A DNA stretch of 64,000 nt, from contig RPFO01000310.1 of the NCBI GenBank assembly GCA_009746045.1, forward strand, positions 4,593,317 through 4,657,316, given 5' to 3'. Of this stretch, positions 16,006-36,300 are shown piece after piece. The translations under genes were made by a program, and so were the position numbers. The number at the start of each line of letters is the position of its first letter. Positions within the stretch are counted from its first letter, which is position 1. Source of the stretch: Mesostigma viride. Its lineage: Eukaryota; Streptophyta; Mesostigmatophyceae; Mesostigmatales; Mesostigmataceae. Below the pieces are notes generated by a model, which ran no database searches, was not told the DNA's origin, and saw only the letters and a program-made list of their open reading frames with translations.

Positions 16006-16576
16006 TCTGCTTGCACCTAAAACGACGCCCAAAATGAATTTCTTACAAGGCTACAACTTTAATCACGTAGTTCTGCATATCATCGCGGCCACTGCGCACA
16101 TATCATCGCTGACGACTAGGCGGTCTCCACCTAGCAAGAGGGATGGGAGACACTAAACTACATCGTGCTCTTTGGTCTCATCGCCTGCTTACTAAAGGTA
16201 GATTGCGTCGTGCTCCTTCTAGGGTCGAAATCCTCCTATTCATTATTCTGCAATCGTGCCATTGGATGTCATGCTTGCGTGTATGGTAATTATTCCCTTT
16301 ACCAGGGTGAAGTGCATGAGAAATGATGCAAGTCATTTTTGCTTGTGCGTCCACCGCAATCGTTTTGGTGCGCGTTCAACGGGTCAAATTTGGCGCCAAA
16401 TGGACTCCTGTTTTACACTATTGGTGAGCTATCTTCCGTACAGACCGTACCGCATCGACGTGGACGGCGACCACGAAGACACTCATTCACATGTCACAAC
16501 CACGCATGTGAGGCATCGAATGCCATCGTGGTGATCATCAACGTCTTTTCACTTTTGGCACGTGGGGACCGCGTAG
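16006..16576. promoter_or_regulatory. Kinesin upstream region; left half of an interrupted divergent intergenic region
   Basis: 571 bp between the kinesin start codon and the left target duplication of the giant element. No TATA box or other motif is convincing. It should contain the kinesin promoter and 5' UTR (inference from position). The last 10 bases, 16567-16576, are GACCGCGTAG, repeated at 32999-33008. Confidence 0.5.
16567..16576. repeat. Target-site duplication, left copy (GACCGCGTAG)
   Basis: This 10-bp direct repeat is identical to 32999-33008 and abuts the inverted-repeat termini, which both read GGTATTTC inward. Confidence 0.85.
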
Positions 16577-18971
16577 GGTATTTCTTATTCCGGGGCCCAA
16601 TGGCCGGCGCCGCGCCAGACTCGCCCGCGTTTGGGCTTTGGGCGTCTTGGAATTTGGCTTTGGGCGTCTTGGAAGTTGGCTTTGGGCGTTTGCTCTTTTG
16701 GCAGATTTCTACACTACACTGGTACTACGTAAAAAAGCACAGACTGGTGCGACGTAACATTTTTAAACTTGGTAAAATTACCGCCGCACAGCCAGCCAGA
16801 ACTGGACAAGGTGATGGCCGCAAGTAGTCGTTGCTGGGCTATCGTATTTGTAGCATGGGGCGTTTCACCGAGTCTACGGTTAGCATGATGGGGAGGATTC
16901 CTAACCTTCATTATGTGGGTTAAGTAGGGGTGCTCATAGTGGCCGGTTTCCCTCGCTTCCTTGTAAACCAGGCTCTGCGTCAAGATCACAGACGACCGGG
17001 TAAGTAGTTGTTCCAGTCTGTTCTAGTTTGTATGACGCCTGCTATTAGGCGTTCTTGTTATTGTCGTTCATCATCGCCGTGACCGTCGTGGCCAGCAGCG
17101 TGCTTTTTTTACATACCGGATGGTGTCGACTTGTTTATTGATAGCGCATTGGTGAATATCGCTGCATGGAGGAATATCGGCTACAACCCGCGGGAAAGTG
17201 CTGGCTCCAATGTTCTTTTTGTATGCAGGATGACGGCACTGCCAAGCCGGAGACGAATATGACGCTCGTTATAATGCCAGTCATTCAGACCGACTGCGCG
17301 ACTGGTTGTGGGATACACGTTCCTGGTTGTGGGATGTGTTCCTTGTTGTGGGATACTTGTTCCTGGTTGTGGGATGCACGTTCCTGGTTGTGGGATAGTC
17401 GTTCCTGGTTGTGGGATGTGTTCCTGGTTGTGGGATACTTGTTCCTTGTTGTGGGATGCACGTTCCTGGTTGTGGGAAACACGTTCCTGGTTGTGGGATG
17501 TGTTCCTGGTTGTGGGATACTTGTTCCTGGTTGTGGGATACACGTTCCTGGTTGTGGGATGCACGTTCCTGGTTGTGGGATGTGTTCCTGGTTGTAGGAT
17601 ACTTGTTCCTGGTTGTGGGATGTGTTCCTGGTTGTGGGATGCACGTTCCTTGTGTTGCTGGTTGCGGGATGTGTTCCTTGTTGTGGGATACTTGTTCCTG
17701 GTTGTGGGAAACACGTTCCTAGTTGTAGGATACACGTTCCTGGTTGTGGGAAACACGTTCCTGGTTGTAGGATACACGTTCCTGGTTGTGGGAAACACGT
17801 TCCTGGTTGTGGGAAACACGTTCCTGGTTGTGGGATACTTGTTCCTGGTTGTGGGAAACACGTTCCTGGTTGTAGGATACACGTTCCTGGTTGTGGGAAA
17901 CACGTTCCTGGTGGTGGGAAACACGTTCCTGGTTGTAGGATACACGTTCCTGGTTGTGGGAAACACGTTCCTGGTTGTAGGATACACGTTCCTGGTGGTG
18001 GGAAACACGTTCCTGGTTGTGGGAAACACGTTCCTGGTTGTGGGATACTTGTTCCTGGTTGTAGGATACACGTTCCTGGTTGTGGGAAACACGTTCATGG
18101 TTGTGGGAAACACGTTCCTGGTTGTGGGAAACACGTTCCTGGTTGTGGGAAACACGTTCCTGGTTGTAGGATACACGTTCCTGGTTGTGGGAAACACGTT
18201 CCTGGTTGTGGGAAACACGTTCCTGGTTGTAGGATACACGTTCCTGGTTGTGGGAAACACGTTCCTGGTTGTAGGATACTCGTTCCTGGTTGTGGGATAG
18301 TCGTTCCTGGTTGTGGGATACTTGTTCTTGGTTGTGGGAAACACGTTCCTGGTTGTGGGAAACACGTTCCTGGTTGTGGGAAACACGTTGCTGGTTGTGG
18401 GAAACACGTTCTTGCTTGTAGGATACTTGTTCCTGGTTGTGGGAAACACGTTCCTGGTTGTGGGAAACACGTTGATGGTTGTGGGAAACACGTTCCTGGT
18501 TGTGGGATACACGTTCCTGGTTGTGGGAAACACGTTCCTGGTTGTGGGAAACACGTTCCTGGTTGTAGGATACTTGTTCCTGGTTGTGGGAAACACGTTC
18601 CTGGTTGTGGGCTGCACGTTCCTGGTTGTGGGATACACGTTCCTGGTTGTGGGATGCACGTTCCTAGTTGTGGGATAGTCGAGCCTAGTTGTGGGATGTG
18701 TTCCTGGTCCAAATATAAAGGGGCACGGGAATTAGCGATAGCAGAGGGGGCTCGGGAATAACGTTAGCAGAGGGGCACGGGCACTAACGTTAGTGAAGGG
18801 GCACGGGCACTAACGTTAGCAGAGGGGGCTGGGCACTAACGTTAGTAAAGGGGCACGGGCACTAACGTTAGCAGAGGGGGCTGGGCACTATCGTTAGTAA
18901 AGGGGCACGGGCACTAACGATAGCAGAGGGGGCTGGGCACTAACGTTAGTAAAGGGGCACGGGCACTAACG
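16577..18971 (+). repeat. Left terminal inverted repeat, ~2.4 kb
   Basis: It matches 32998-30574 in inverse orientation. Order from outside: ~730 bp of unique sequence (including a GGCTTTGGGCGTCTTGGAA direct duplication near 16640-16690), the 21-bp array (17306-18707), a short spacer CCAAATATAAAGG, then the first units of the AACGTTAG array. The right arm carries about 8 extra bases (TGTGTCAC) in the outer part, and the array lengths differ. Confidence 0.93.
17306..18707. repeat. 21-bp minisatellite of the left TIR, ~67 copies
   Basis: The unit is CCTGGTTGTGGGAWACACGTT, with alternating sub-types GGGAAACACG, GGGATACACG, AGGATACACG, GGGATACTTG, GGGATGCACG and GGGATGTG. Because 21 is divisible by 3, several frames stay open for hundreds of codons on both strands. 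These are artefacts, not genes. Confidence 0.97.
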
Positions 18972-19455
18972 TTAGCAGAGGGGCACGGGCACTAACGTTA
19001 GTAAAGGGGCACGGGCACTAACGTTAGCAGAGGGGGCTGGGCACTAACGTTAGTAAAGGGGCACAGGCACTAACGTTAGCAGAGGGGCACGAGCACTAAC
19101 GTTAGTAAAGGGGCGCGGGCACTAACGTTAACAGAGGGGGTGTGGGAATAAAGTTAGTGAAGGGGGGTGGGCATTAACGATAGCAGGGGGGGGAGGGCAC
19201 TTACGTTAGCAGAGGGGTGTGGGAACTAATGTTAGCAAAGGAGGGGGGGCACTAACGTTAGCAGAGGGGGCTGGGCACTAACGTTAGTAAAGGGGCACGG
19301 GCACTAACGTTAGCAGAGGGGGATGGGCACTAACGTTAGTAAAGGGGCACGGGCACTAACGTTAGCAGAGGGGTGTGGGAACTAATGTTAGCAAAGGAGG
19401 GGGGGGCACTAACGTTAGCAGAGGGGGCTGGGCACTAACGTTAGCAGAGGGGTTG
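18740..19455. repeat. ~27-bp AACGTT-containing minisatellite
   Basis: The unit is GGGCACTAACGTTAGCAGAG + GGGGCTG, alternating with GGGCACTAACGTTAGTAAAG + GGGCAC, about 26 units. Each unit contains the palindrome CTAACGTTAG. The first ~9 units belong to the inverted repeat and recur at 30574-30800; the remainder exists only on the left. Confidence 0.92.
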
Positions 19456-19461
19456 TGGGAA

Positions 19462-19855
19462 TTAGGGCCACGCACTGCCGGCAGTTACCACTCCCTGTGA
19501 TGATTGCATGGATGGCTTGTGGGTTCTGGCATGGGGTAGCACTGCCGGCAGTTACCACTCCTTGTGATGACTGCATGTCCCCGGCTTGTGTGTTCTTGCA
19601 TGGGGTGGCACTGCCGGCAGTTACCACTCCTTGTGATGACTGCATGTCCCCTTGACGCAAGGACGGCTTGTGGGGTCTTGCATGGCGTGGCACTGCCGGC
19701 AGTCACCACTCCTTGTGATGACTGCATGTCCCCGGCTTGTGTGTTCTTGCATGGGGTGGCACTGCCGGCAGTTACCACTCCTTGTGATGCCTGCATGTCC
19801 CCTTTATGCAAGGACGGCTTGTGGGGTCTTGCATGGGGTGGCACTGCCGGCAGAG
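19462..19855. repeat. Alternating ~64/77-bp tandem repeat with CTGCCGGCAG palindrome
   Basis: Five copies of GCACTGCCGGCAGTTACCAC followed by TCCTTGTGATGACTGCATGT and then either CCCCGGCTTGTG or CCCCTTGACGCAAGGACGGC. The last CTGCCGGCAG runs directly into a further short stretch of the 21-bp TIR unit (19860-20010). Confidence 0.88.
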
Positions 19856-20228
19856 GATACTTGTTCCTGGTTGTGGGATACACGTTCCTAGTTGTGGGAT
19901 AGTCGTTCCTGGTTGTGGGATACTTGTTCCTGGTGGTGGGAAACACGTTCCTGCTTGTGGGATACTCGTTCCTGCTTGTGGGATGCACGTTCCTGGTTGT
20001 GGGATACTTGTTCCTTCACATGTTCGCCGTTATTCCTCCATGCAGTTATTCCTACACGCACATCAAGATAGAGCTATTAAATATTTCCTTGTACATCCAA
20101 TGATGCTACGTCTTGGCTATGCTCACATTACTTGCCCACGCTCCTTGTTATGATAAGCTCACATGGGTCTCATTGCACCCACAGATCTTGCAGGATCGTT
20201 TAGCGTGTCCGATTGCAGCTGTGGCATT

Positions 20229-20427
20229 AATTAATTAATTAATTAATTAGACTCGTGCTCCCGTTTGGGAGTCACGCAGCTGTGGCATGCCTCTAGCATG
20301 AAGGAGAAAGGGGGTCTCTGACCTTCCTTCCTGTTGTGCAAACAAAGGGATGAAAGGCAGTTCGGGCTCCGTGACTCCCCAACGGGAGCACGAGTCTAAT
20401 TAATTAATTAATTAATTAATTAATTAC
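20229..20427. mobile_element. ~200-bp short TIR element (MITE-like) flanked by (TTAA)n
   Basis: Terminal inverted repeats AGACTCGTGCTCCCGTTTGG (from 20249) and its near-perfect complement ending at 20398 enclose ~110 bp. Both ends abut (TTAA)n runs. A related half (AGACACGCGCTCCCGTTGTG) occurs at 48155 beside another (TTAA)n run, so this is a dispersed family. No coding capacity. Confidence 0.7.
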
Positions 20428-20966
20428 CTACCTACCTGACCTACCTATCAAGTTCTAACTAGCTCACTAGCTAACTAACTGACTAACTATTTTAACTAAG
20501 TAAGTACTAACTAACTACTAACTAAACAACCCCCGTTGCTCTGCCGAACTAAGTAGATGCCCTTCGATTAAAACGCACAAATCGTGAATGATGCAAGCTA
20601 CCGTGCCGACGCACAATTGATTCTTGCCCCCCTACGCGTCTAAATCTTGTATTGTTGTCAGTAAGCGCTCAACGTGCATGGGGCTAGCTGCCCAAATATG
20701 AGATTCCACGGACAACACCGAAAATGAGAAACCACAGTAGCTACCAGCAAGTTACGAACACAGGACCTCCCTAAATCTAGTATCAAGTAACGTTATTTCC
20801 CCGTTTCGACGAACTTGGTCCATTCACATTTATAGCGGTGAATTAATTGTCACACCTTGCTCAGGCAAAGTGCGCCAAGTCCTACAGCATGTCTCCCCAT
20901 GTCATTCACTTAAATAAGGAAGGGAAATGTAAAGCCATGCATCGTGAAGCCGCGTATGAAAGGGCA
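20428..20966. other. Non-coding element interior; CTAACT-rich at left
   Basis: 20428-20530 is low-complexity ACTAACTAAC sequence. The rest shows no convincing gene or repeat. Confidence 0.6.
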
Positions 20967-20979
20967 TAACCACCCAAAT

Positions 20980-23900
20980 TAAGTTGCGTCTGCTTCAGGA
21001 TGGCTCCTTTGCAGCATTCTTTGATGGGCACAGGATTACAGGTGTTCCGATTAACACCCCCGGAGCGGAGTCTCGTCAGGCGTCTAGCCAGAAGGGTGCT
21101 GCCTCTGTTGGTAGACAGTAGGTAGACAACCTTCCTCGTCGGCTCGCGGCTAACAGGCTTCGGGGACAGCCTCTAAATAGTCCCGTTCCACTACCATGCA
21201 TCGACCTAACAGTCGACTGAGACACATGGTGGTGCCGGTATCTCGGGCCAGAACGACAGCTCTCAGCAGCAAGATTAGCAACACCCAACGCATGCTAGAT
21301 TTCCTACGCCTCTGCGTTGCGCAAGCATCCCCGAATACCCAGAGCAGGCGGCAGGCTCGCATCCTACGCTTGCAGGACAAAATAAATGCGATGAAAAGCA
21401 CTATTTCTACCGCTTCCCTTCCCCCCTCCGTTTCACCCCCACCTCCACCCCCCGCCGCATCCACCCCCATCACCCATCGTCGTCCTCCCCTGGTGGGCCA
21501 GCAGGCATCCTTGGCCCTTGCCACTTTTAACACCCGCACATTGCTAGATGACGACCATAGCTGCCGGGTAGAGGAGCTAGTCGCATTCTGCATTGAGCAT
21601 CGTGTGTCTATATTAGGCGTCCAGGAACACCGCCGCACGGTGCCACTTGGCATGGTGAGCACTGATCGCTTGGCGGGTGGCTGGCGGTTTTTCTTCGCTG
21701 GCAGCGGTACGTCTGGCCAAGGTGGTGTTGGTCTTTTGTGTTCGCCGCTGGCAGTTGCTAGCCTCAGCACGCTTAAGTTTCTAACGCCACGCCTTATGGT
21801 AGCACACTTCACCTCCGTCGAGGGGCGGTCTAAACACCACCTCACGGTGGGGGTGGGCTACGCACCCCATAGTGGTCTACCTGCGTTGGAACGCCAGAAG
21901 TTCTTCGAGGACTTGCATAGCCTTGAGGGGGCCACCCCGGCCCGCCACTTTTTGGTTATGCTGCTAGACGCCAATGCCACGCTCCCCGTGGGTACTGCTG
22001 GCAGTCGCTTTGCGCCTGCTGACACTGCTGCTAATGACAACACTCCCCTGTTTTCTGCCTTTTTGCGGGATAGCGGGATGGTTGCTGTCAACTGCCACTT
22101 CCAACGTCCCTCCCAGGACTTGGTCACTTTTCGTGGCCCTAACGGCCGTCAGGCCTGTCTGGACTACGTGGTGGTACGGCAGCCCAGGTGTACCTCGGTT
22201 CTGGACACCCGAGTGTTTGACACGCCCACGGTGTGCTCTGACCACCGGTTGGTGCGCGCGACCCTTCGGCTCCGGTTCCACGTCCCCGCGCGCCGCGCCC
22301 CAGTGGTCCGCCCTGACTGGTCTGCTCTACGTCCGGTCAAGGGAGATCCTGAGGACTGGACGGACGCCGAGCACGAGCGGAACTGGTGCCGACGGAAGTA
22401 CCTGTCGGCACTGGACGCCCGGGCGGACGTCGACGAGCTGGACAAGGGTGCCCCCAACGCAGCCATTTTTGCGGGCTTTGCGGCCCGTGCCCCGTTGCTG
22501 GCGGCCCGGCACCTGCCGGTCATGCCCCGCCGCCGCCCCGGCCCGCTCTACCGCCAGGACCCCAAGGTCTTGGCCGCCCGGCACCGCCTCAAGCGTAACC
22601 GGGACCCGCTGCAGAAACCATTGCTCAAGGCCGCCCTTGTGGAGGCCTACGAGCATGCTCAGGACGCGGAGGCGGCCCAGTGCATCGCGGATGCCAAGGC
22701 CTGCCAGGCTCGCAACCAGGGCAAGGACATGTGGTACCACCTCGACCGGCTCGGCGGCCGGCGGCAGCGCACCCCGGTGGAGCACACGGGGGACGGCACG
22801 GCGCCGGTAAGCCTTGACCGCTGGTTGGCCCACAATGTTTCCTTGACCGGTGGGGCTCGCGCCCCCCCCCGCCGCTTCACCCCGAGACGGCCGCCCGCCT
22901 CGGGGTCGCCGGACCCCCGCCGCCGCCAGCGCCCCCCTCCTCGGCCGCGGACTACCAAGTCCCCGCCTTGAAGGAGGGCTGCCTTGCCACCAACGACGTC
23001 GTCCACCCCTTCACTTTGGAGGAATTGGACGGCGCCCTTGCTCGCCTGCGGTACGATGCGGCGGTCGGGGCCGACCACCTTTCTGCTGAGCTGCTGAAGA
23101 CCCCTGATCTGGCGGTTAGGGATCTTCTGCTGGCGTTCTGCAACCGTGTCCTGCTCTCTGACGAGCCTCCGCCTGCTGAGTGGCAGACGGCCATCCGCGT
23201 CATGCTGTACAAGAAGGGCTCTGCTGCTGACCCCGGTAACTACCGGGGTGTCTGCCTCCAGAGCGCCGCGCTGAAGGTCTTCATGCGCATGATGCTGCAC
23301 AGGCTCCGCGCCGCGCTGGACCCACACCTGGGTGAGTCTCAGATGGGTTTCCGTAGTGGTCGTAACACTGTCATGGCTGTGTTTGTCGCGCGCCGGTTGA
23401 TGGAGGAGGTGCGTCGCCTTCCCCCTGACAGTTTGCCGCTGGTCCTCATTTTTGTTGACTATATCAAGGCCTTTGACACGGTCCTCTGGGAGGCTCTTTG
23501 GGCCATCCTAGCTCTGGACCGCGTGCCACCAGCGTTTATTGCTGCCATTCGCCGACTGTATGAGGGCTCACAGGCAGTAGTGCGGACTGCGGAAGGCACC
23601 ACCCCACCATTCCCCCTTCACCACGGGGTGTGGCAAGGTTGTGTCCTGTCTCCATACCTGTTCATTATTGTCGTGGACCACGTCATGCGCCAGGCACGTG
23701 CGCGCTTTACTGCTCTTAAGGGGTTCGAGCCAGGCTTGGACATCCTTAACGAGCGTGGGCACGGCGGGGTTAGCACGGGTTACCGCCTGGCTGACCTGAT
23801 TTACGCGGACGACACCACCCTCATCGCGCGCCCCGAGCACATTCAGACCTGGCTGGACTGTCTGGGCCTGGAGGCGAGGGCGGTGGGGTTGGAGATTAGT

Positions 23901-24794
23901 GTCAAAACTGAGGCGATGGTGATTGGGGCCTCCAGTCGCCCACCGCTGCCGCGCCTGCTAGACGGGACGGAGGTCCCACTCCGCGACCGCTTCAAGCTGT
24001 TGGGGAGTTGGCTTCCGGACACTGCCGACGATGTGGACACCCGCATCGGCCTTTCCTGGGCCAAGCTCCGTTCGCTCAACACCTACTGGCGCTCCAAGGG
24101 CCTGGACGAGCACCGCAAGCGCATGCTCTTCAAGGTCCTCGTCCTCACGGTGCTCACGTATGGCGCCGAGGCATGGACACTCACGGCAACACTGGCAGCC
24201 AAGCTAGACGGCACGGTAACCCGGATGCTCCGACAGGTCCTGAATGTCGGGTTTTCTCAGCGTAGGTCCTTAGAGTCTTTGTATCACGGTATGCCGCGTA
24301 TTTCGGACGAGATTAGACAGCGTAGGATAGCATTTGTAGGACATCTTGCTCGCACCAGCCAGGTCGACACCGCCCTTGGTCTGGCCGGTCCCCAGCGGCT
24401 CGGCCAACCGGGGCGGCACATTTTGACCTGGCCTGGCCCCAAGAACATTCCTAAAAAGGTAGGGAAACATGCCATGACCTATACCCAGATGTTGCTGGAC
24501 GACCTAGTGGTCCCAGCCCAGTTTGAGTACCGCATCCACTCTCTCTCCCGTCTTTGGACTGCCATGCAGGACAAGGAGCGGTGGAAGAAGATTGTCAAGG
24601 CACACACGCCCGACCCTGTGGGCAAGCCACCTCCCCCCAAGCGGAGGAGGCGTTTTGATGAGTAGTGTAGTTAGGCTTTTCTAGATAGAGTTAGGATAGT
24701 TCGATCACGCGGCTTCCTCCACCCCATCCATCATGAAATATGTGCTACATGACCTCCCCACGGAGGCATGTTATAATTTAATTTTAATTTAATT
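20980..24794 (+). mobile_element. Near-complete non-LTR retrotransposon (LINE, APE-type)
   Basis: 3.8 kb flanked by the 13-bp direct repeat TAACCACCCAAAT (20967-20979 and 24795-24807). It has a ~215-bp 5' leader, one endonuclease-reverse transcriptase coding region, and a short 3' region ending in a T/A-rich tail. It carries no ORF1. Well-defined duplication ends suggest full-length insertion into the giant element. Confidence 0.85.
21196..24665 (+). pseudogene. LINE endonuclease-reverse transcriptase, split by one frameshift
   Basis: The protein would nick target DNA and copy the element RNA into the genome. The first frame, 21196-22971, has a ~105-aa N-terminal region, then an APE/EEP endonuclease with ATFNTR (~110), GVQEHRR (~143), LLDANAT and a terminal SDH. 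The second frame, running to 24665, is the reverse transcriptase: GNYRGVCL, GFRSGRNT, FVDYIKAFDTV, the catalytic YADDTTLI at 23802-23825, then GAEAWTL and a basic C-terminus (KRRRRFDE). The second frame stays open upstream to the run of nine C at 22862-22870, and the first derails just after it. A single-base indel there separates the frames, so it may be a recent mutation or an assembly error. No RNase H or zinc knuckle is evident. Confidence 0.9.
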
Positions 24795-25197
24795 TAACCA
24801 CCCAAATAATCAAGTTGGTACGTATAGTGTCAACCATGCGTGTCAGCCGTGCGTCGGTGTCTTCCGAAAACTATACAGCATATCAAGGAGACAACCATAT
24901 AGTCATGCTTCATCAACCACCGCAAATTGAAACGCAAATTGAAAAATAATGTTTCATGTCCCACGTAGCTCCCACAAAAACCAGCATCTTCATTAAAACA
25001 ATAAGTGGAAGCATACATGTGACACTATTGACATGCCCGGAGGCACGCCGTTCAAGGCCCTTCATGAAGTACGTTGCCCTAGAGGCAACCAAGACAAGGG
25101 TGGGTGGGTGGGGAGCAAAGAAAGAGGCCGACAAAACCAGCCAGAGCGGCTTTTAGTCGCAAAACCTCCCTTATCCCTAGCTAACTGACGTCATTAA

Positions 25198-25455
25198 ACC
25201 CTTATCAAAGAGACAACCAGCGCAGGCCAGAAATCGGGAGAATCCGGACCATGGTAGCTCGAGCCTGCCGTTATCTTTTCCGCGTTTTCGAGTCGTTCAG
25301 GATGATGAAGATGAATGGTGATGGAAATGTGTATCCTTGTGCATTGAAATTATGGCTGGCTTACGTGTGGAGCGACTAGATGACCTAGACGGTGGGGCCG
25401 GAAACAGCATGCTTGATCAGGGCGTGTGTTTCTAGCCTAACTGGCCGGGAGTGCC
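25198..25455. mobile_element. 258-bp insertion, dispersed family (second copy near 62.2 kb)
   Basis: It is absent from the equivalent point of unit 2, where B joins C directly. It is flanked by CCTTAT on both sides. The first ~130 bp (GAGACAACCAGCGCAGGCCA onward) recurs at 62166-62300, outside the giant element. No open frame of note; type undetermined. Confidence 0.7.
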
Positions 25456-25700
25456 TTATGTTCAGTGATGCTAGTAAGACGCTAACCGTACAGACCGGGG
25501 GTAGAATATCCCGAATCTGCACGGCTAGTAATAAATAATGCGTAGGTTGTTCTTTTCAGGGGCACTGCACCTCACGCCCCGTTCCGCCCGGGTATAATCA
25601 ACCCAAGCGCGGAACGCACATTTTATTTAATTCATTTTTCAACCATGCACTATACTGCATCTACTAATCACAAAAGCTCTAGCCAAACAGCTACGAGAAA

Positions 25701-27647
25701 TTAATTAATTAATTAATTATCAACATCACTCCGTTGGGAGTCAATGTAGCACATATCCCTGAGAAGGGGCATATGGCTTTAAATACATCCTAGGCTACTT
25801 CATGCAAGGGTGGGAATGTAAGCAACACTTGCTCTAGGTGCCGCAAGGGCACCGGCACCACCATGCTGTCTCAGGTTCAACCCAGCTAAGGGGATCCTGG
25901 CACGGGGGAGGAAGATCATCATGGCTATGCAAGGGCTAGGGCATGGCTTCTCGACAGAGAGCATCTCTCTGCATGGCATAGCATGGCTAAGTTCTTATCT
26001 TAATGCAACATCCATGGGGGTCCCATTATAGACAAAGCATGGCTAAATGTTGAAGGCATCATCCATGGGGGCCATTATGGGCGCACATGCGCGTGGGCCA
26101 CATGCTAGGCTAAGCCTTACTAATCTACACTACTGGTATATATATTCCTAGTCTGAGGTGGCAGGAGGGGGCTGCCAGGGCTTGTGGTCAACGTGGATGA
26201 CCGCCCCCCTCCAGTATACCGGCTTCCCCCTTGCGCTCTGCCGGAGCTGAAGGTAGGCCGGCCATAGCTCGCGTCGCCGTTGTTGCTGGGCCAGGGTCAA
26301 GTCGTCGTCCAGCGTGAAGCGAGTCTCCGAGAGCTTCTTGCGGCATTTAAGGAACGCCAGCTTGTCCGCCATGTACTTAAAGGTGAGGAGCACGGGGGCC
26401 GGGCCAGCCTTCCCCCGCGCGCGGGGGAGGCGGACAGCCGACATGTCCAGCTCACCAGTGAGTAACATGGGGGCAAGAATGGCGCGCTTAAATGCCTCAA
26501 GAAGGCTCGTGGAGGTCTCACCTGCCTGCTGGTCGAAGTGCTTGACGATGACATTGTGGCTGCGCCGGGCGATGTCGGCTTCCTCGCGAAGGTCGAGGGC
26601 TTGTTGCTTGAGTTGTGCCGAGATGGTGGAGGTGGTGGAGGTGGTGTGCTGCTTAAGCAAGTCCGCCCAGGTGGAGGGAGCATCGCCGGCCGAGCCAGCA
26701 GGCGCCGGCTGGGCGGCGATGTCCTTCACCGCCTGGGCGGTGAGGCCGGCGGTGTCATGCAAGCTCTCAAGGGCGTTGGCGGTGGCTTGAAGGCGTTGGT
26801 CGAGGTCGAGGAGCTGGGCTTTGATGTCGGCAGTGGAGGCGGAAATGGCCGTGGAGGTGGAGGCGGCGGCGGTGGAAATGTGAGGAAGTTCAGCAGTCAG
26901 CGTGCCGCCGATTGCTGCTATGTCGGCAGCAAGGGGGGTCACGTGCTGCTGATTAAGGCTTCCGTGAGGATGGAGCGGAGGGTGGGGACGGAAAGGGGTG
27001 GAGCCCAGATCTCGCCGTCAGAGCGCTGGAGAAGGGAGTTGAGGATGGCGTGCTGGAGATGGGGGCGGACGCAGCCGGACAGCCCGTAGATGTTGGCCCA
27101 GCGGCTGCCGTCCGGGGCGAGGAGGCGATTGATGGAGTGGAAATGGAGGCACAGGTCGTAAAGCGAAGCGTAATCCCCGAAGAAGATGCAGCGCAGAGCA
27201 TCGGTCGGAGAAATGGTGGCCCAGTCGTAATCTGCGACCTTGAAAGGCCGGGGCCGAAAGCTCGGTTCTGGGCGTGAAGACCCTCCTGTGTCGTCGGCTG
27301 GGCGGGTGCGCTTGGGGTCAGGCGATGCAGATGGCGAGGCGTTAAGCCCGGGGGGTTGCTGGACGACCACCAGTGCACGACTAGTGTCATCGCCGCCTGC
27401 CGGACCTGAAGGCGAAGCTGCAGCCTGAGCTGCAGAATTTTCATTGCCGAGCGCAGCCGCCAGGCTGCGTTGCGTCGAGGCGCGTTTGTGCGCCATATAT
27501 TGCGTTTTAGATTCGGAAAATTATATCAGCATGTGCGTCTTAGAAAGACGAAGCGATAGTGATATTCACGGCTAAATTCGGTGCTCAAACGTGAAAGTTA
27601 TGAGCTCCGACAGCCATGGCTACCTCGTGGCCGGAATTTTGTGGATG
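25701..27647 (-). mobile_element. ORF1-only non-LTR element ('half-LINE', HAL1-like)
   Basis: 1947 bp bounded by the 11-bp duplication GCTACGAGAAA (25690-25700 and 27648-27658). In minus orientation it has ~150 bp of 5' leader, an ORF1-like coding region (27496-26148), ~450 bp of 3' region and a terminal (TTAA)n tail. No reverse transcriptase is present. ORF1-only derivatives (HAL1) are known from mammalian L1, and this looks like an independent case. Confidence 0.75.
26148..27496 (-). pseudogene. LINE ORF1-like protein, two overlapping frames
   Basis: It is probably the RNA-binding, nucleic-acid-chaperone partner of a LINE. The first frame (27496-26939, 185 aa) starts at ATG with a basic, low-complexity N-terminus and a moderately conserved region containing DYDWATISPTDALRCIFFG. 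The second frame (26942-26148) continues in another register. It has a likely coiled coil (LLDLDQRLQATANALESLHD) and a C-terminal domain with PVLLTFKYMADKLAFLKCRK, LAQQQRRRELWPAYL and VYWRGAVIHVDHKPW. This C-terminal pattern matches LINE ORF1 C-terminal domains and degenerate copies at 49.0, 49.8 and 63.2 kb. The frames meet at a C6 run (GTGACCCCCC), so one indel separates them. Confidence 0.72.
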
Positions 27648-27744
27648 GCTACGAGAAAACACTACGACATATAAGCCGCTCATCCAGCGGCCTCTTGTTC
27701 CCGCATTCACGTATAGAAGAAACTCCGTTCAAAGAACCCCGATT

Positions 27745-29121
27745 CATGTCCCACGTAGCTCCCACAAAAACCAGCATCTTCATTAAAACAATAAGTGGAA
27801 GCATACATGTGACACTATTGACATGCCCGGAGGCACGCCGTTCAAGGCCCTTCATGAAGTACGTTGCCCAATCACCCCCGCCCTGGCTTTCCCTTGAAGC
27901 CGCACTCCACCTTGCTCGTTGTCACAAGTGACCGCCCTGCCGCAAAACGGGAGCCCCCCCACATCGGGAGGCGTGTGCCCGGCGGCTGTGGATGCAAGGC
28001 CAGGCCCAAAAAGGCCCAGCGCATTTGCACTGCGATTGCGCACGGCGAGCCTATCATGACCCCTCTCGGGGCCCCGAGTCGGTACCGCTATGGCCGTCTC
28101 CCCATAGACCCGGGGTGCTTCGAGAAAAAACGTGGACCTAGCCCAGGCCCCGCCAGCCCGGATGCCCGAGGCCACAGCCCCAGGCACCTGGCTGAACGAG
28201 AGTCCGTTCAGCCAAGACCGCATTCCCCCCGAGGTTTCTATGCGTGGGGAAAAAATTTCTAGCTTAAGCGCTTTTCCCATCGCCGTCCCCAGCCCCAACC
28301 ACCCCCCCTCGGCGGAAGGCAATTGCAAAGTTTGCTGGCCAGCAGCAATTTCCGAAGAAAAAGCCTCAGGCCGCGGACCGAGACACGGGTCGCCAGTGCC
28401 AGCCATCCGGCTCCAACCCGGGGTGCAAGCATCCCCAGGTACGGAGCACCAGCTCGCGCACTGGGCCGACCAAGCGACAGTTGAGCACCTGTCACGGCAC
28501 CCGGCCCACCAAAGACCCCAAGCTGGGGAAAAGGTGCGGACCGGAGGTAATCATTTTCTTTTCTTTTAGTTAACCGGGCGAGGAACTACGCCTGGCCGGT
28601 TAACAACTGGAAGTCTCACCACTGGCCAAGTGGCCGGTGCGACCAGTGCTTTTGGGATTTTGCTCCGCAGCACCCATAGCTGCGGCTGCCGCCGCAACGA
28701 CAACGAGCAAAGAAAGAGGCCGACAAAACCAGCCAGAGCGGCTTTTAGTCGCAAAACCTCCCTTATCCCTAGCTAACTGACGTCATTAAACCCTTATGTT
28801 CAGTGATGCTAGTAAGACGCTAACCGTACAGACCGGGGGTAGAATATCCCGAATCTGCACGGCTAGTATTAAATAATGCGTAGGTTGTTCTTTTCAGGGG
28901 CACTGCACCTCACGCCCCGTTCCGCCCGGGTATAATCAACCCAAGCGCGGAACGCACATTTTATTTAATTCATTTTTCAACCATGCACTATACTGCATCT
29001 ACTAATCACAAAAGCTCTAGCCAAACAGCTACGAGAAAACACTACGACATATAAGCCGCTCATCCAGCGGCCTCTTGTTCCCGCATTCACGTATAGAAGA
29101 AACTCCGTTCAAAGAACCCCG
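27745..29121. repeat. Composite unit 2 (modules A'-B'-C'-D')
   Basis: It follows module D of unit 1 immediately. A' is 27745-27870, then an 835-bp GC-rich block, B' is 28706-28799, C' 28798-29037 and D' ends at 29121. B'-C'-D' are contiguous here, which exposes the insertions in unit 1. Confidence 0.8.
27871..28705. other. 835-bp GC-rich block of unknown origin inside unit 2
   Basis: It replaces the ~26 bp that separate A and B in unit 1. Composition is sharply different, with many C runs and hairpins, for example GTTAACCGGG with CCGGTTAAC near 28569-28604 and CTCGGGGCCCCGAG near 28066. A pyrimidine tract ending TTCTTTTCTTTTAG (28556-28569) resembles a splice acceptor. No frame gives a recognisable protein. 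It could be a captured gene or organelle fragment. Confidence 0.5.
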
Positions 29122-29392
29122 AATCACAGGCTCAACCGGAACTCCCGATCAACACGTCAGTACCACCCTCTGTAGGCAAGTCCATATCGAACGGACGTAA
29201 CGCCACTGAGAGACGGCGTAACTAACAAAGATAACCCGCCCCCCCCGCCCCCAACAGGTAGGGAGCCCCTTGCAGCAGTAGAGAGGACCACGATAAAAAC
29301 AAAGTAAGATAGCGGGTAATCATGAAGTAGACCTACGCATCCCATGACTATGCCACCACCAATTAGCTTCCCATTACGCAGTGAGAGTTACG

Positions 29393-29475
29393 TCATCTGG
29401 TGGGATTCGACCGACTAGCCAATCGGTGCAGGGGCTTACCACCTCCATCAATTGAGCCACCTCCCCCCAATGGTG
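29393..29475 (-). mobile_element. tRNA-like sequence, probable SINE head
   Basis: On the minus strand, GTGGCTCAATTGATGG (29460-29445) resembles a pol III A box and GGTCGAATCCCA (29412-29401) a B box, at tRNA-like spacing. The acceptor ends do not pair, so a functional tRNA is unlikely. Best read as a degenerate tRNA-derived SINE or tRNA pseudogene. Confidence 0.4.
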
Positions 29476-30573
29476 GTTCCCCTGACTGCCTGGAGGAGGG
29501 CTTGCCGGGGCGGACGGCATCCAAGGCAGGACTCCCACCACGAACAATTACACTCCCACTTGGTAGTGAGTAGGCCAACTAATGATAACACACACAAAGG
29601 ATGCACACTACATACCGGAGCACCCTCACAGGCGTGCGCAGGGCGGGTCTACAACCCTCTACCCTACACTCCATCGCTGTGCAAGTTGCCACGTTTTTCT
29701 CAATAAAAGCTCCATAGAGGCCCTTTAGTGCTGGACATCTGTATCGGTATCGGGAATGGGTTAACACAACCGCGAGCAACTCTTCTTCAGCACTTGAGCC
29801 ACAGGAGGATGTCGCACAGGTCGCGCTCGTTCGTCCCACGTCAGGTGTGGCGGTGTCTTCCCGGTATACCTGCTCCTTCTACCTCTAGGTCAGGGCCTGC
29901 ATGCATACAAAGGAAGACAAGAAGATATTATCGGACTTGGGAACATGCCAAACACGCCCCTGGTAATAAACCCGCGTTCTGCTAAGCGTATGTGTGTGCC
30001 ATTCTTGACATATGTAAATTAACAAAAAAAAGTATACCTTACCGAGACTACCAAACCGAGAACCGATCGACATCATGTGTGGGTGCATGGTCATGTGTAT
30101 TGGACAATTTGTGTGTGTTTTCCTGTGAGCAAAAATATATGGCCATGTACAAAAAAGCAATCCGGCATGTAGTTCAGGTAGAGAACAACTTACAAAAACT
30201 TAAATGATACTACAATCAAATGCGAACAAATCAACAACATTGTTAGGTTGTTATTCATGTGTATAAAACATACATCACGATTCACCTGTCAAGTCCTCAA
30301 TGCAGGTCCGGGCATCTTCCCGAACACCAAGAGAGGAGCTTTGACCTCCCACCATGACGTCACGGTCTGCATGCATTCACAAAAAGACATTTATTTCAAA
30401 GGTTTTTATGTAAATTAGTTTAATGCAGTAGTAGATTCCTCAAAACCCGGCCTCTCCCCCAAGTTATAGATTTACTACCTCGCTTTCTCAAAGCTGGCCT
30501 ATCTCACGTTACCATAAATAGGTCCCAAGCGATCCCGAGCGTCATGTGAGCAAACCCTTGTGGTAAAGACTTT
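29476..30573. other. Non-coding right interior of the giant element
   Basis: No gene, known domain or tandem array was recognised. AT content rises after 30000. Confidence 0.55.
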
Positions 30574-32998
30574 ACGTTAGTGCCCGTGCCCCTTTACTAA
30601 CGTTAGTGCCCAGCCCCCTCTGCTATCGTTAGTGCCCGTGCCCCTTTACTAACGATAGTGCCCAGCCCCCTCTGCTAACGTTAGTGCCCGTGCCCCTTTA
30701 CTAACGTTAGTGCCCAGCCCCCTCTGCTAACGTTAGTGCCCGTGCCCCTTCACTAACGTTAGTGCCCGTGCCCCTCTGCTAACGTTATTCCCGAGCCCCC
30801 TCTGCTATCGCTAATTCCCGTGCCCCTTTATATTTGGACCAGGAACACATCCCACAACTAGGCTCGACTATCCTACAACCAGGAACGTGTTTCCCACAAC
30901 TAGGAACGTGTATCCCACAACCAGGAACGTGTATCCCACAACCAGGAACGTGTTTCCCACAACCAGGAACGTGTTTCCCACAACCAGGAACGTGTATCCC
31001 ACAACCAGGAACGTGTTTCCCACAACCAGGAACGTGTTTCCCACAACCAGGAACAAGTATCCTACAACCAGGAACGTGTTTCCCACAACCAGGAACGTGT
31101 TTCCCACAACCAGGAACGTGTTTCCCACAACCAGGAACGTGTTCCCACAACCAGGAACGTGTTTCCCACAACCAGGAACGTGTTTCCCACAACCAGGAAC
31201 GTGTTTCCCACAACCAGGAACGTGTTTCCCACAACCAGGAACGTGTATCCCACAACCAGGAACGTGTATCCTACAACCAGGAACGTGTTTCCCACAACCA
31301 GGAACGTGTTTCCCACAACCAGGAACGTGTTTCCCACAACCAGCAACGTGTTTCCCACAACCAGGAACGTGTTTCCCACAACCAAGAACAAGTATCCTAC
31401 AACCAGGAACGTGTTTCCCACAACCAGGAACGTGTATCCCACAACCAGGAACGTGTATCCTACAACCAGGAACGTGTTTCCCACAACCAGGAACGTGTTT
31501 CCCACAACCAGGAACGTGTTTCCCACAACCAGGAACGTGTTTCCCACAACCAGGAACGTGTTTCCCACAACCAGCAACGTGTTTCCCACAACCAGGAACG
31601 TGTTTCCCACAACCAAGAACAAGTATCCTACAACCAGGAACGTGTTTCCCACAACCAGGAACGTGTTTCCCACAACCAGGAACGTGTTTCCCACAACCAG
31701 GAACGTGTTTCCCACAACCAGGAACGTGTTTCCCACAACCAGGAACGTGTTTCCCACAACCAGGAACGTGTATCCTACAACCAAGAACGTGTTTCCCACA
31801 ACCAGGAACGTGTATACCACAACCAGGAACAAGTATCCTACAACCAGGAACAAGTATCCTACAACCAGGAACGTGTTTCCCACAACCAGGAACGTGTTTC
31901 CCACAACCAGGAACGTGTATCCTACAACCAGGAACGTGTTTCCCACAACCAGGAACGTGTATCCTACAACCAGGAACGTGTTTCCCACAACCAGGAACGT
32001 GTTTCCCACAACCAGGAACGTGTTTCCCACAACCAGGAACAAGTATCCCACAACAAGGAACACATCCCACAACCAGGAACGTGTATCCCACAACCAGGAA
32101 CAAGTATCCCACAACAAGGAACGTGCATCCCACAACCAGGAACACATCCCACAACCAGGAACGACTATCCCACAACCAGGAACGTGCATCCCACAACCAG
32201 GAACAAGTATCCCACAACAAGGAACACATCCCACAACCAGGAACGTGTATCCCACAACCAGTCGCGCAGTCGGTCTGAATGACTGGCATTATACCGTGCG
32301 TCATATTCGTCTCCGGCTTGGCAGTGCCGTCATCCTGCATACAAAAAGAACATTGGAGCCAGCACTTTCCCGCGGGTTGTAGCCGATATTCCTCCATGCA
32401 GCGATATTCACCAATGCGCTATCAATAAACAAGTCGACACCATCCGGTATGTAAAAAAAGCACGCTGCTGGCCACGACGGTCACGGCGATGATGAACGAC
32501 AATAACAAGAACGCCTAATAGCAGGCGTCATACAAACTAGAACAGACTGGAACAACTACTTACCCAGTCGTCTGTGATCTTGACGCAGAGCCTGGTTTAC
32601 AAGGAAGCGAGGGAAACCGGCCACTATGAGCACCCCTACTTAACCCACATAATGAAGGTTAGGAATCCTCCCCATCATGCTAACCGTAGACTCGGTGAAA
32701 CGCCCCATGCTACAAATACGATAGCCCAGCAACGACTACTTGCGGCCATCACCTTGTCCAGTTCTGGCTGGCTGTGCGGCGGTAATTTTACCAAGTTTAA
32801 AAATGTTACGCCGCACCAGTCTGTGCTTTTTTACGTAGTACCAGTGTAGTGTAGAAATCTGCCAAAAGAGCAAACGCCCAAAGCCAACTTCCAAGACGCC
32901 CAAAGCCAAATTCCAAGACGCCCAAAGTGTGACACAAAGCCCAAAGGCGGGCGAGTCTGGCGCGGCGCCGGCCATTGGGCCCCGGAATAAGAAATACC
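30574..32998 (-). repeat. Right terminal inverted repeat, ~2.4 kb
   Basis: Inverse copy of 16577-18971. It contains the AACGTTAG units (30574-30800), the spacer, the 21-bp array (about 30841-32262, ~68 copies) and ~735 bp of outer sequence. The non-array parts are almost identical to the left arm, implying recent insertion or gene conversion between arms. Confidence 0.93.
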
Positions 32999-33008
32999 GA
33001 CCGCGTAG
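32999..33008. repeat. Target-site duplication, right copy (GACCGCGTAG)
   Basis: Identical to 16567-16576, immediately after the right terminus GAAATACC. Confidence 0.85.
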
Positions 33009-33382: not shown

Positions 33383-36300
33383 ATGCACGGAAGGCCGAGG
33401 ACAGGAGCCCATCAGGATGAAGCAAAGGAAGCTGAGACACGCAAGAAGGTCCAGCTGTATTGCAGACTTAGCAGCGACGTGATTGCACGCCGAAACCAGC
33501 GCCGGTAAGTTACAACTGGTTCACCCGAACTGCCAGGGTCTCGTTGATTTCCAAATAAATCTTGAAATGAAAAGCTTATGAAGTTCCTCAGCTTGATGTT
33601 AGTTAGCGATTCGGGACCACCGCCTGCTTTTCAGTATAAGAACCGCTGAAAATTTTCCACGTAAGCCGATCGCTGATCACTTGTAGTCACCTGGTGCTTC
33701 AGTATCATACCACCAGGATCCCCCAATATCCCGCTATATAGCATGTGATGCGTTTTGTCGCCAGCCGAGAGGCTGGTCTTTTGCATGCGGTTGGTACAAC
33801 TGCGTGACTAGCTTATGCATCCACTGTTGCATTGGGCCAATGATGACGGAATTGTCTCGTAGCCGTTCCACCGATTTTCTATCGAATGGCCACATATTCG
33901 GTTCCTGGCTCCTGCAAAAGCAAGTTGCTTTCCCCATACCTGCGTACCTGCACATTTTTTATTCACCGCATCTCATTAACAACGTCTTCTCCGTCTGGCC
34001 TACAAGAGAGCATTTTATCATCCAAAGTACAGCTTCCGCACAAAAAATGTGGTAATTAATTGTGGTAAGCTGTGTAGCTCAGTTTTTTTCTGGCTGTCCA
34101 TGGCGGTTCCTTGCCTTGTCGCCGCTTACTTCATCCGTATCATCAAACTTCATTCGATGAGTTTTCCTATCCTTGATCACGGGTCTGTATGTCAGGGCAT
34201 GGCGCCCGCAGCCACATCGTGTTTGCTTCCATGTCTCTTCCTATATGAGGAGAGAGTCAACATAGCCGGTTCCCCTTCGTGCATGCTACTGCTTGGATGG
34301 CTGCAAGGGACTCCTTGCCTGCATCTAGCAGACAAAACAGCAGTTTGAGCGTTCGATCGTGTCCCCTCACATCCTGCCTACAGTACTGTAGACTTCCGGA
34401 GGACCACCTCTCCCCCAACCAGGCTCATAGCATGCACACTCCACTGCACTCTACCATCCGTCCCACTTGGGACAAGCCCACCTTACCATTACCGATTGCT
34501 GTTTTCTCATCCCCCAACCACGGGGCGCCACACGTGGGCGTATGTATATATACCTCCCAGGTTTGACCCTGAGTCCCTGGGCCTGACCGCAGCACTGCTG
34601 GAGCTGAACCCTGAGTTCCTGACAGTATGGAACTACCGCCGCGACGCCGTGACGCACTGGCTGGAGCAGCATGCACCGAGGGATCACGCGGCGGCTGACC
34701 CTGTTGTCGCTGCCGCCGCCACCACCTCTGCACATCCGCAGCAGGCGCAGGATGCGCCCGCTGCTACTGGCAACGGGCACTATAATGCTGGCGCCGCTGC
34801 TGCTAGCATCAATGGTGGAGCCCTGGATGGCCATGTGGCGGATGCAGGCAGGCCTGACGAGGGCAGGGATGTGGCAGCAGGGGCGGCGGCAGCTGTGCCG
34901 GCACCTGCGGGGGCTGACGAGGGTGCGCGTGAGCATTTCCCCCAGAAGCTGCGAGAAGTGGTGGAGGAAGAACTCAAGCTGGTGAGTGGCAGGTTTGGGG
35001 AAAACCCTAGCTGTGAGTGGGTAGGGTTGGTATGACATGAAGTCTGGTTGGAGGCAAGTGCGGTGTTCTTGTACGCACGTTCGTGGGTTGCGTGTGTAGG
35101 AGCCGTGCAACTATGGTGTTTGATGTTCGCATCAGCGGATGTGCTTGGTGGCTGTCACCTAACCGCCATGTTCCCTGGGCGTGCGTGCCCTTTTTGTGAC
35201 GCCCCTGCACGCCGCTGTCTTTCTCTTCCATGCTTCCTAATTACAGGCCGAGAAAGCACTGCGCAAGAACGCCAAGGCGTACGGGCCGTGGTACCACAGA
35301 AAGGTGAGGTTTCGATGCCCCTGTATCATCCTGGGCACGTGGGGGTGAGGGGGGGGGACATTTCCTGGGCGCTCGCCACCCGCCTGTGTGTGCAGATAGT
35401 TCTCTTCGTACTTAAATTGCCATCCAGCATGCGTCATCGGTGCTTTGAACGGAATGTCCGTCTTGAAGCCAGGGATCCCGCTTGTTTCCTTTTCTCTACA
35501 TCTTGCATCAATTATGCGGACGTGTGTACCTCCTGGCACTAATACGTCCCAATGTTACTTGGTTGTATTATGCATGCCCCGAATGTGTCGTTTTCCCTTG
35601 GCTCCAGTGGGTACTGTCCCTTGCCCTCCGCCACGGCATTGGCTCCGACCTGCTGCAGCGCGAGCTCCTCCTGTGTGCCAAGCTGCTGGATGCCGACGAG
35701 CGCAACTTCCACGGGTGGCTGCACCGCCGGTTTGTGGCGGAGCAGCTCGGGCGGTCGCCAGCGCAAGAGCGTCAGTTCTGCGAGCAGAAGATCAACCAGA
35801 ACTTCAGCAACTACTCGGCGTGGCACTATCGCAGGTGTGTGCGACCGTGGGGGGGAGGGTGACAGCCTGGCTGTGCTTGTCGGGTCTTGGACATTGCCTG
35901 TGTTTGTGTGAAGCTGCGCCCCACTGACTTGCACCGCTTCTCGTTCCGTCCTATAATCCTCCAATCCCTGCTCGCACGCGCTGCTCCCTGAACAGCTCCC
36001 TCCTGCCCCTGGATGGCGTCAAGCCCACCCCACTGCACGGGACACCTGGCACAGACGTGCTGGCTTCGCCGGCATCCTTAGACGCCAGCATACCCGTCAT
36101 GCGCTCCGAGTTTGAGCTTGTGCAGAACGCCTTCTTCACCGAACCCGAGGACCAGAGCGGGTGGATGTACCACCGCTGGCTGCTGGCACGCGCGGTGAGC
36201 CCCTGCACCCTTTACCCTATACCCTATACCCTATACCCTTTACCCTATACCCTATTCCCTATACCCTATACCCTATACCCTCTACCCTATGCCCTACACA

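Follow-up and report, generated by a model that had tools for sequence, protein, structure and literature searches.

A foldback-form Mutator-like transposon in Mesostigma viride whose long inverted arms appear to trace to one founder junction

Structure of the Element in the Window

This work concerns a stretch of 64,000 nucleotides (hereafter the window) from the streptophyte alga Mesostigma viride (assembly GCA_009746045.1, contig RPFO01000310.1, positions 4,593,317 to 4,657,316, forward strand), in which an earlier note, made from the sequence alone, had described a large element with minisatellite-packed inverted repeats. The element proper occupies positions 16577-32998 of the window (16,422 bp), within 16567-33008 when both copies of its target duplication are included. 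Its 20-base terminus GGTATTTCTTATTCCGGGGC has one match per strand in the window, at 16577-16596 (+) and 32979-32998 (-), and the sequence GACCGCGTAG occurs at two places only, immediately outside these ends, as a perfect 10-bp target duplication; both features were indeed found where the earlier note had placed them. The arms of about 2.4 kb, built mainly of a 21-bp minisatellite, were recovered as well (Table 1). The AACGTTAG array that had been reported in these arms is present, but its strong inequality between the left and right sides had been missed.

The palindromic core CTAACGTTAG of the 26-bp array is found 23 times inside the element, and the core GGTTGTGGGA of the 21-bp array 101 times, whereas the remaining 47,558 bases of the window contain neither. 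A Pfam scan of eight open reading frames (ORFs) detected no transposase inside the element, as the earlier note had stated, the only domains above the cut-off being the endonuclease and reverse transcriptase of a long interspersed nuclear element (LINE). We conclude that this structure is a real copy of a Mutator-type transposon, namely a non-autonomous foldback derivative with nested retrotransposons.

Table 1. Features of the element in the window, and one related fragment in another copy (positions are those of the window unless stated otherwise).
Feature	Position	Strand	Remark
Left copy of the 10-bp target site duplication GACCGCGTAG	16567..16576		sequence read
Left arm of the long terminal inverted repeat, right-end type	16577..18972	+	94.2% to the reverse complement of the right end, 2,396/2,425 bp aligned
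21-bp minisatellite, left	17302..18697	+	66.6 units
26-bp array (AACGTTAG) with palindromic core CTAACGTTAG, left	18720..19452	+	28.1 units
69/82-bp array and second short 21-bp array	19472..20015	+	same kinds present in form A
Backbone segment	20595..20979	-	95.7% to a segment downstream of the transposase gene in the transposase-bearing element
LINE, inserted later	20980..24794	+	endonuclease ORF 21181-22971, reverse transcriptase ORF 22818-24665, different frames
Backbone segment	24795..24956	-	98.8% to the transposase-bearing element
Second inserted block	24957..29122		at or close to a site with insertions in the other four fetched B copies too
Backbone segment	29123..30572	-	96.3% to the transposase-bearing element
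Founder junction, where the backbone meets the inverted right arm	30566..30590	+	same in 11/11 form-B elements
Right arm of the long terminal inverted repeat	30574..32998	-	from the arm alignment; inner limit is the founder junction
26-bp array (AACGTTAG), right	30574..30827	-	9.8 units; starts at the founder junction
21-bp minisatellite, right	30849..32261	-	67.6 units
Right copy of the 10-bp target site duplication GACCGCGTAG	32999..33008		sequence read
LINE-tail-like fragment in L017	element positions 4911-5166		among right-end arrays; match to window 24543-24795

A Family of Elements with the Same Ends

The earlier note had proposed a genome search for other copies. In the genome searched (440 Mb, 2,243 contigs), the 20-base terminus was present at 116 places, 52 forward and 64 reverse, while a reversed control genome gave no match, so that these occurrences are not due to chance. 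Some of the terminus counts may nevertheless reflect recent or assembly duplicates, since a 2.6-kb sequence with two termini in the same orientation (L071, C1913) shares 1,540 identical bases with another (L007, C335).

Pairs were drawn from 100 of the 116 termini, and all pair-based counts given here hold among those listed. Sixty of them formed 30 convergent neighbouring pairs, 6.8 to 49.8 kb in length, and 23 of the 30 showed a perfect flanking duplication when all flanks were read (18 of 10 bp and five of 9 bp). As a control, 870 mismatched combinations of left and right flanks were compared, and a single one (left flank of L013, right flank of L027) shared at least 9 bp; it involves two neighbouring ends which, in our reading, delimit a compound unit (see below).

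Two forms were recognised by the type of their ends. Form A has one left-type and one right-type end, with a minisatellite-rich right end only and inverted ends of about 210 bp, and form B has right-type ends on both sides. Seventeen pairs belong to form A, 11 to form B, and two have one unmatched end, this typing being based on 16 fully fetched pairs (11 A, 5 B), the copy on C998 (A) and 13 pairs typed by their ends (six B, five A, two with one end unmatched).

The compound unit involves both forms. A distance of 1 kb separates L013 (A) from L027 (B) in C1106:706083-731044, a region that comprises L013, L069, L027 and L028. Neither has a duplication of its own, and the outer flanks of the two together share the 10 bp CTCTCTGCCC. 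On these flanks, the simplest reading would be that L013 and L027 moved once, through their outer ends, as a 25-kb compound unit, a single case in our material. The spacers between outward-facing termini at L069 and L070 have nothing in common except the termini, and the compound-unit idea therefore rests on one shared outer duplication.

Form A and the Transposase-Bearing Copies

Form A proved close to an element that encodes a transposase. The inverted repeat in 11 form-A copies aligned over 215-216 bp at 93.5-94.4% identity, and over 1.1-2.7 kb of backbone outside the arrays all 11 are 99.2-100% identical to the C1548 transposase locus. The C998 copy, of 22,044 bp, is flanked by a 9-bp duplication and has a 5.2-kb insert in its transposase gene; its arrays, at positions 17720-21342, stand downstream of the transposase and are followed by the right end. 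Five of the 11 A copies (L010, L014, L017, L019 and L021) were aligned to it, and among the matches listed all five correspond to its two ends, with the middle missing and left segments 99.4-99.9% identical. L017, for instance, equals positions 1-742 (99.9%) plus 16048-22044 (99.5%) of the C998 copy. From these alignments, form A copies look like shortened versions of the transposase-bearing element, some of them with additional inserts. Between A copies, all 55 pairwise comparisons were free of substitutions in the outer 720 bp of the right end; for the outer 715 bp of the left end, this held in 45 of the 55. Such a near-absence of substitutions indicates that the family moved recently.

Two further observations concern these copies. 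At least L012, L013, L015 and L016 carry blocks without match in the other elements. The C998 copy (L053) has an ACA trinucleotide array of about 162 units at positions 4119-4605, upstream of the transposase gene.

The C1548 copy, a pair at 3713-29435 with a 10-bp duplication, contains an ORF of 848 amino acids with the domains PF10551 (46.2 bits against a cut-off of 27.6; E 6e-12) and PF21056. Residues D401, D465, C487, H490 and E592 are identical in all four proteins aligned, and we take them to fit the D-D-E and C..H catalytic pattern of Mutator-like elements (MULEs). A C..C..H stretch near residue 700 presumably resembles a SWIM finger; Pfam did not report one. A cysteine-rich stretch with many CxxC motifs (residues ~315-372; L032:1946-4492) stands just before the MULE catalytic domain, has no Pfam match and is absent from the two distant relatives aligned. 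No PHD finger was detected in the 848-residue protein at E 0.01 in the Pfam scan, which could miss a weak divergent finger. The best database match of this transposase was a Mesostigma viride protein from JGI, 96% identical over 77%, and a wider protein search gave three relatives, one of them from the same alga. Searches by sequence yielded no match among solved structures and none among phage records, and the structure prediction was too poor to use (mean predicted local distance difference test score of 36).

At the genome scale, the PF10551 profile had 106 matches. In the score class linked to the family (48-50.5 bits, limits set after the scores were seen), 8 of 11 matches have a listed terminus within 20 kb and 3 of 11 fall inside pairs; the corresponding counts for the remaining 95 matches are one and zero. 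Pfam scans of the eight window ORFs together with 10 ORFs of sister elements gave no transposase, but only the LINE domains and three matches below the cut-off. As a separate observation, 53 of the 106 matches score alike, at 61.9 bits, mostly with an open frame of 631 codons; the 106 matches form several score classes, and the 61.9-bit class suggests another young MULE family.

The Mutator-like affinity proposed in the earlier note is in line with these results, and the genome search it had called for did provide other copies, 9-10-bp duplications and relatives encoding a MULE transposase. Membership is indeed supported by the fact that members with the same ends carry the MULE domain together with target duplications of 9-10 bp: PF10551 was found in full-length members, terminal inverted repeats (TIRs) are present, and the duplications of the 23 pairs agree with the 8-11 bp expected. 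Long, internally repetitive TIRs also evolve in unrelated superfamilies, and the window element could accordingly be imagined as a foldback of another kind, such as a Galileo-like P element, merely resembling a MULE. We consider this very improbable, because the MULE-bearing copies have the ends and the backbone of forms A and B, and because of the PF10551 match itself.

Form B and Its Founder Junction

Five form-B copies were fully fetched, namely the window element, L018, L023, L025 and L027, with inverted arms aligned over 1.5-2.4 kb. Both arms were read fully in all five, and they display the feature of the foldback class, i.e., long inverted arms made of short tandem repeats. The junction between the backbone and the inverted right arm falls at the same base in each of the five. 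Six further B pairs, for which 401 bp of each end and the stretch around the junction were read, have an identical 25-base junction (6/6). The distance from terminus to junction ranges from 1.9 to 3.7 kb over the 11 B copies, and 9 of these 11 pairs have their own target duplication, all different, the exceptions being L027 and the 49.8-kb pair on C1801. A junction common to all 11 points to a single origin of the long arms. Form B is, on these comparisons, a derived form in which an inverted copy of the right end appears to have taken the place of the left end, and which would then have spread to other sites. The long TIRs described in the earlier note were thus confirmed, but that they represent a derived state within one subfamily, with later retrotransposon insertions, had been overlooked.

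With gap columns excluded, the 5' and 3' arms of one B element are 99.1-99.4% identical in their outer 715 bp, while the same arm is 99.6-100% identical between B elements. The same arm being closer between copies than the two arms within a copy, the arms are distinguishable sequences derived from one founder. This bears on whether the palindrome could be an artefact of assembly, or else a chromosomal inverted duplication. The draft assembly is repeat-rich, and one 2.6-kb sequence in it, L071, has 1,540 identical bases in common with another contig. In the window, however, the outer 715-bp arms are 0.7% apart when gap columns are ignored. Each of the four other B copies fetched has the same arm-specific sequence, which makes an assembly fold-back less likely, and the target duplications of nine of the 11 B copies are all different. 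We therefore regard an artefact or chromosomal duplication as most unlikely.

In published accounts, foldback arms have been proposed to expand gradually (discussed in PMC3169594), and inner sequences to be recruited in Galileo (PMC3573991). Arms that grew at both ends by tandem-repeat growth and repeated recruitment of inner sequence, with no single replacement, would be consistent with the 21-bp arrays, which vary in length between B copies. However, the 11 B copies share a junction at base level, the 26-bp array stops at the same place in 5/5 B copies (9.8 of 28.1 units), and the left end of form A is absent from the B ends, a pattern of one event followed by change in the 21-bp array. Gradual growth thus seems unlikely to us, and replacement in a single step remains the preferred explanation.

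From a mechanistic point of view, the founder step may have been a break at the left end, repaired with the right end as template through the homology of about 210 bp. The copied tract would have run some 2 kb into the minisatellites before rejoining internally, and this replacement of the left end by an inverted right end would have happened once. The model is the one proposed for TIR lengthening in Galileo, where one end's flank would be copied to the other end (excerpts of PMC3573991). Both A and B copies may be moved in trans by the transposase of full-length copies, and arrays of the 22-, 21- and 26-bp tandem motifs may serve as protein-binding sites. From the shared ends, backbone and duplications and the members with a MULE transposase gene, we consider it highly probable that the window element is a foldback-form, non-autonomous member of a cut-and-paste Mutator-like family.

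Several points weigh against this reading. Seven of the 30 pairs have no target duplication; two of them share one across the compound unit, and five are unexplained. In the end typing, two of the 30 pairs have one end that matches no reference end. Alignments of A copies to the C998 copy drop to 95-99% through the arrays, among the matches listed, and a comparison of the left and right ends of the C998 copy gives only 82.5% over 212 bp, owing to a gap of one 22-bp unit, the left end having one unit more. Three of the 11 matches in the linked transposase class (C777, C1525 and C2178) have no listed terminus within 20 kb. The repair mechanism given above for the founder of form B is one that we only infer.

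The origin of foldback arms has been debated, in the parts of the literature that we consulted, on copies that differ a good deal. A transposase-bearing relative, shortened derivatives and a palindromic form are found here in one genome, with about 96-100% identity of the backbone, and this origin becomes directly testable because the founder junction is resolved to the single base in each of 11 copies, beside close relatives. Very large MULEs are also recorded here in an early-branching streptophyte: one copy measures 22 kb, of which 5 kb are an insert, and pairs flanked by perfect duplications span 25.7 and 27.9 kb, lengths to which later nested inserts may add.

Behaviour of the Minisatellite Arrays

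Array length differed clearly between the two forms. The right-end 21-bp array counts 19.5-20.1 units in all 11 fetched A copies, eight of which have the same sequence across the 460 bp sampled. The five B copies have 38.6-104.6 units in their 5' array and 43.6-67.6 in their 3' array; the 26-bp array of the 3' side does not differ among the five. As a general pattern only, the strings of 21-bp units in B copies agree mostly at the array ends and differ in the middle, with L018 departing at some ends. Whether a palindromic arrangement makes minisatellites unstable could be studied in this family as a natural experiment. The experiment is confounded, as array length and palindromic context vary together, and instability in form B cannot be separated from length because longer arrays change faster anyway.

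With this in mind, we put forward a broader proposal, which is possible but which we hold tentatively. The foldback would have been born in one step, when the inverted replacement of the left end turned an ordinary MULE with 210-bp TIRs palindromic, and from there it would have reached at least 11 of the 30 sites sampled. The 21-bp array, of about 20 units in A and about 39-105 in B, would owe its hypervariability to the palindrome: transposase binding to the arrays and folding of the arms during repair might have favoured more units and a symmetric element.

Later Insertions in the Window Copy

The interior of the window copy consists of pieces of the family backbone separated by inserted sequences (Table 1). 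Compared with the C1548 locus, the backbone matches in three segments at 95.7-98.8%, with one more match of 98 bp at 87.8%. The LINE is flanked twice by the 13-bp sequence TAACCACCCAAAT, at 20967-20979 and 24795-24807 as read from its junctions, and this target site is single and uninterrupted in the C998 copy. As the LINE provides the sole coding domains above the cut-off in the window copy, one might suppose that its genes move the whole element. This is scarcely conceivable to us, given that the LINE has a 13-bp duplication of its own and a TTTAA-rich tail, that its target site is intact in the C998 copy, and that its coding part has no match in the 15 other elements compared. We read the LINE and the second block as passengers, retrotransposons that inserted in the window copy at a later time.

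The last 250 bp of the LINE (24543-24795) are about 92% identical to a fragment among the right-end arrays of 11 form-A copies. This fragment is probably the tail of an older, truncated relative, and it seems to have become part of the family's right end.

The second block (24957-29122) contains direct repeats of 247, 123, 95 and 93 bp in a rearranged order, and an ORF of 232 residues in it belongs to a cluster present in three elements; the observation covers L023, L025 and L027 besides the window. Its minus-strand ORFs at 26148-27520, which have no Pfam match, presumably resemble the first ORF of a LINE. The block may be a repeatedly rearranged passenger element.

Relation to Known Elements

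The earlier note had held arms made of minisatellites to be unusual and the family possibly undescribed. The second point stands as far as our searches of openly licensed papers go, in which the family was not found by name; the first does not, since minisatellites in or near MULE ends are already known. Likewise, no foldback form traced to a single, base-resolved founder event beside living relatives was found in these searches, and two descriptions of the Mesostigma genome contain no mention of the word Mutator in their main text.

Foldback (FB) elements of Drosophila have long TIRs of short tandem repeats, a likeness to form B. Composite FB units (Ising), by their description, carry DNA between two elements (PMC6431247), like the compound unit reported above.

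Among MULEs, a close resemblance is seen in Rehavkus, with a minisatellite before the 3' TIR, and in the aphid element Phantom, with one after the transposase (PMC6446971). Both share with the present family a MULE-type transposase, a duplication of 8-10 bp and a minisatellite between the transposase gene and the 3' TIR, as the C998 copy also shows. By contrast, they come from animal hosts, and Phantom also from an ichnovirus, whereas the present host is a streptophyte alga. Rehavkus further differs by its PHD finger and TIRs of 26-400 bp, where the present transposase has a cysteine-rich insert without Pfam match and the B arms extend over 1.9-3.7 kb to the junction. In the same source, MULE TIRs measure 14-500 bp in the text and up to 640 bp in a table. 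Plant MULEs with tandem TIRs are also on record (excerpts of PMC3310237).

Tm1 of root-knot nematodes, a Mutator/Foldback family, is similar in its MULE transposase, its 9-bp duplication, its non-autonomous derivatives and its tandem repeats in the TIRs, whose number differs between ends and copies; it has 1-9 units of about 14 bp and was judged inactive, whereas the present arrays reach 105 units and the copies are nearly identical (PMC3169594). Galileo of Drosophila likewise has foldback-like, internally repetitive TIRs lengthened by tandem growth, but its transposase belongs to the P superfamily, and not, as here, to a MULE family in which one founder junction is kept in 11 copies (PMC3573991). 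Tetris of Drosophila virilis is another non-autonomous foldback with tandem repeats inside its TIRs; unlike the present ones, these are of 220 bp, and apparently no autonomous partner was identified, according to the parts of PMC4079207 consulted.

Other Repeats in the Window

Outside the element, the window contains a 6.6-kb array of the 7-mer ACCCTAT at 36207-42787, with about 942 units at 98% identity, apparently a variant of the plant telomere repeat. A short ACCCTAA array of 11 units is located at 11632-11710.

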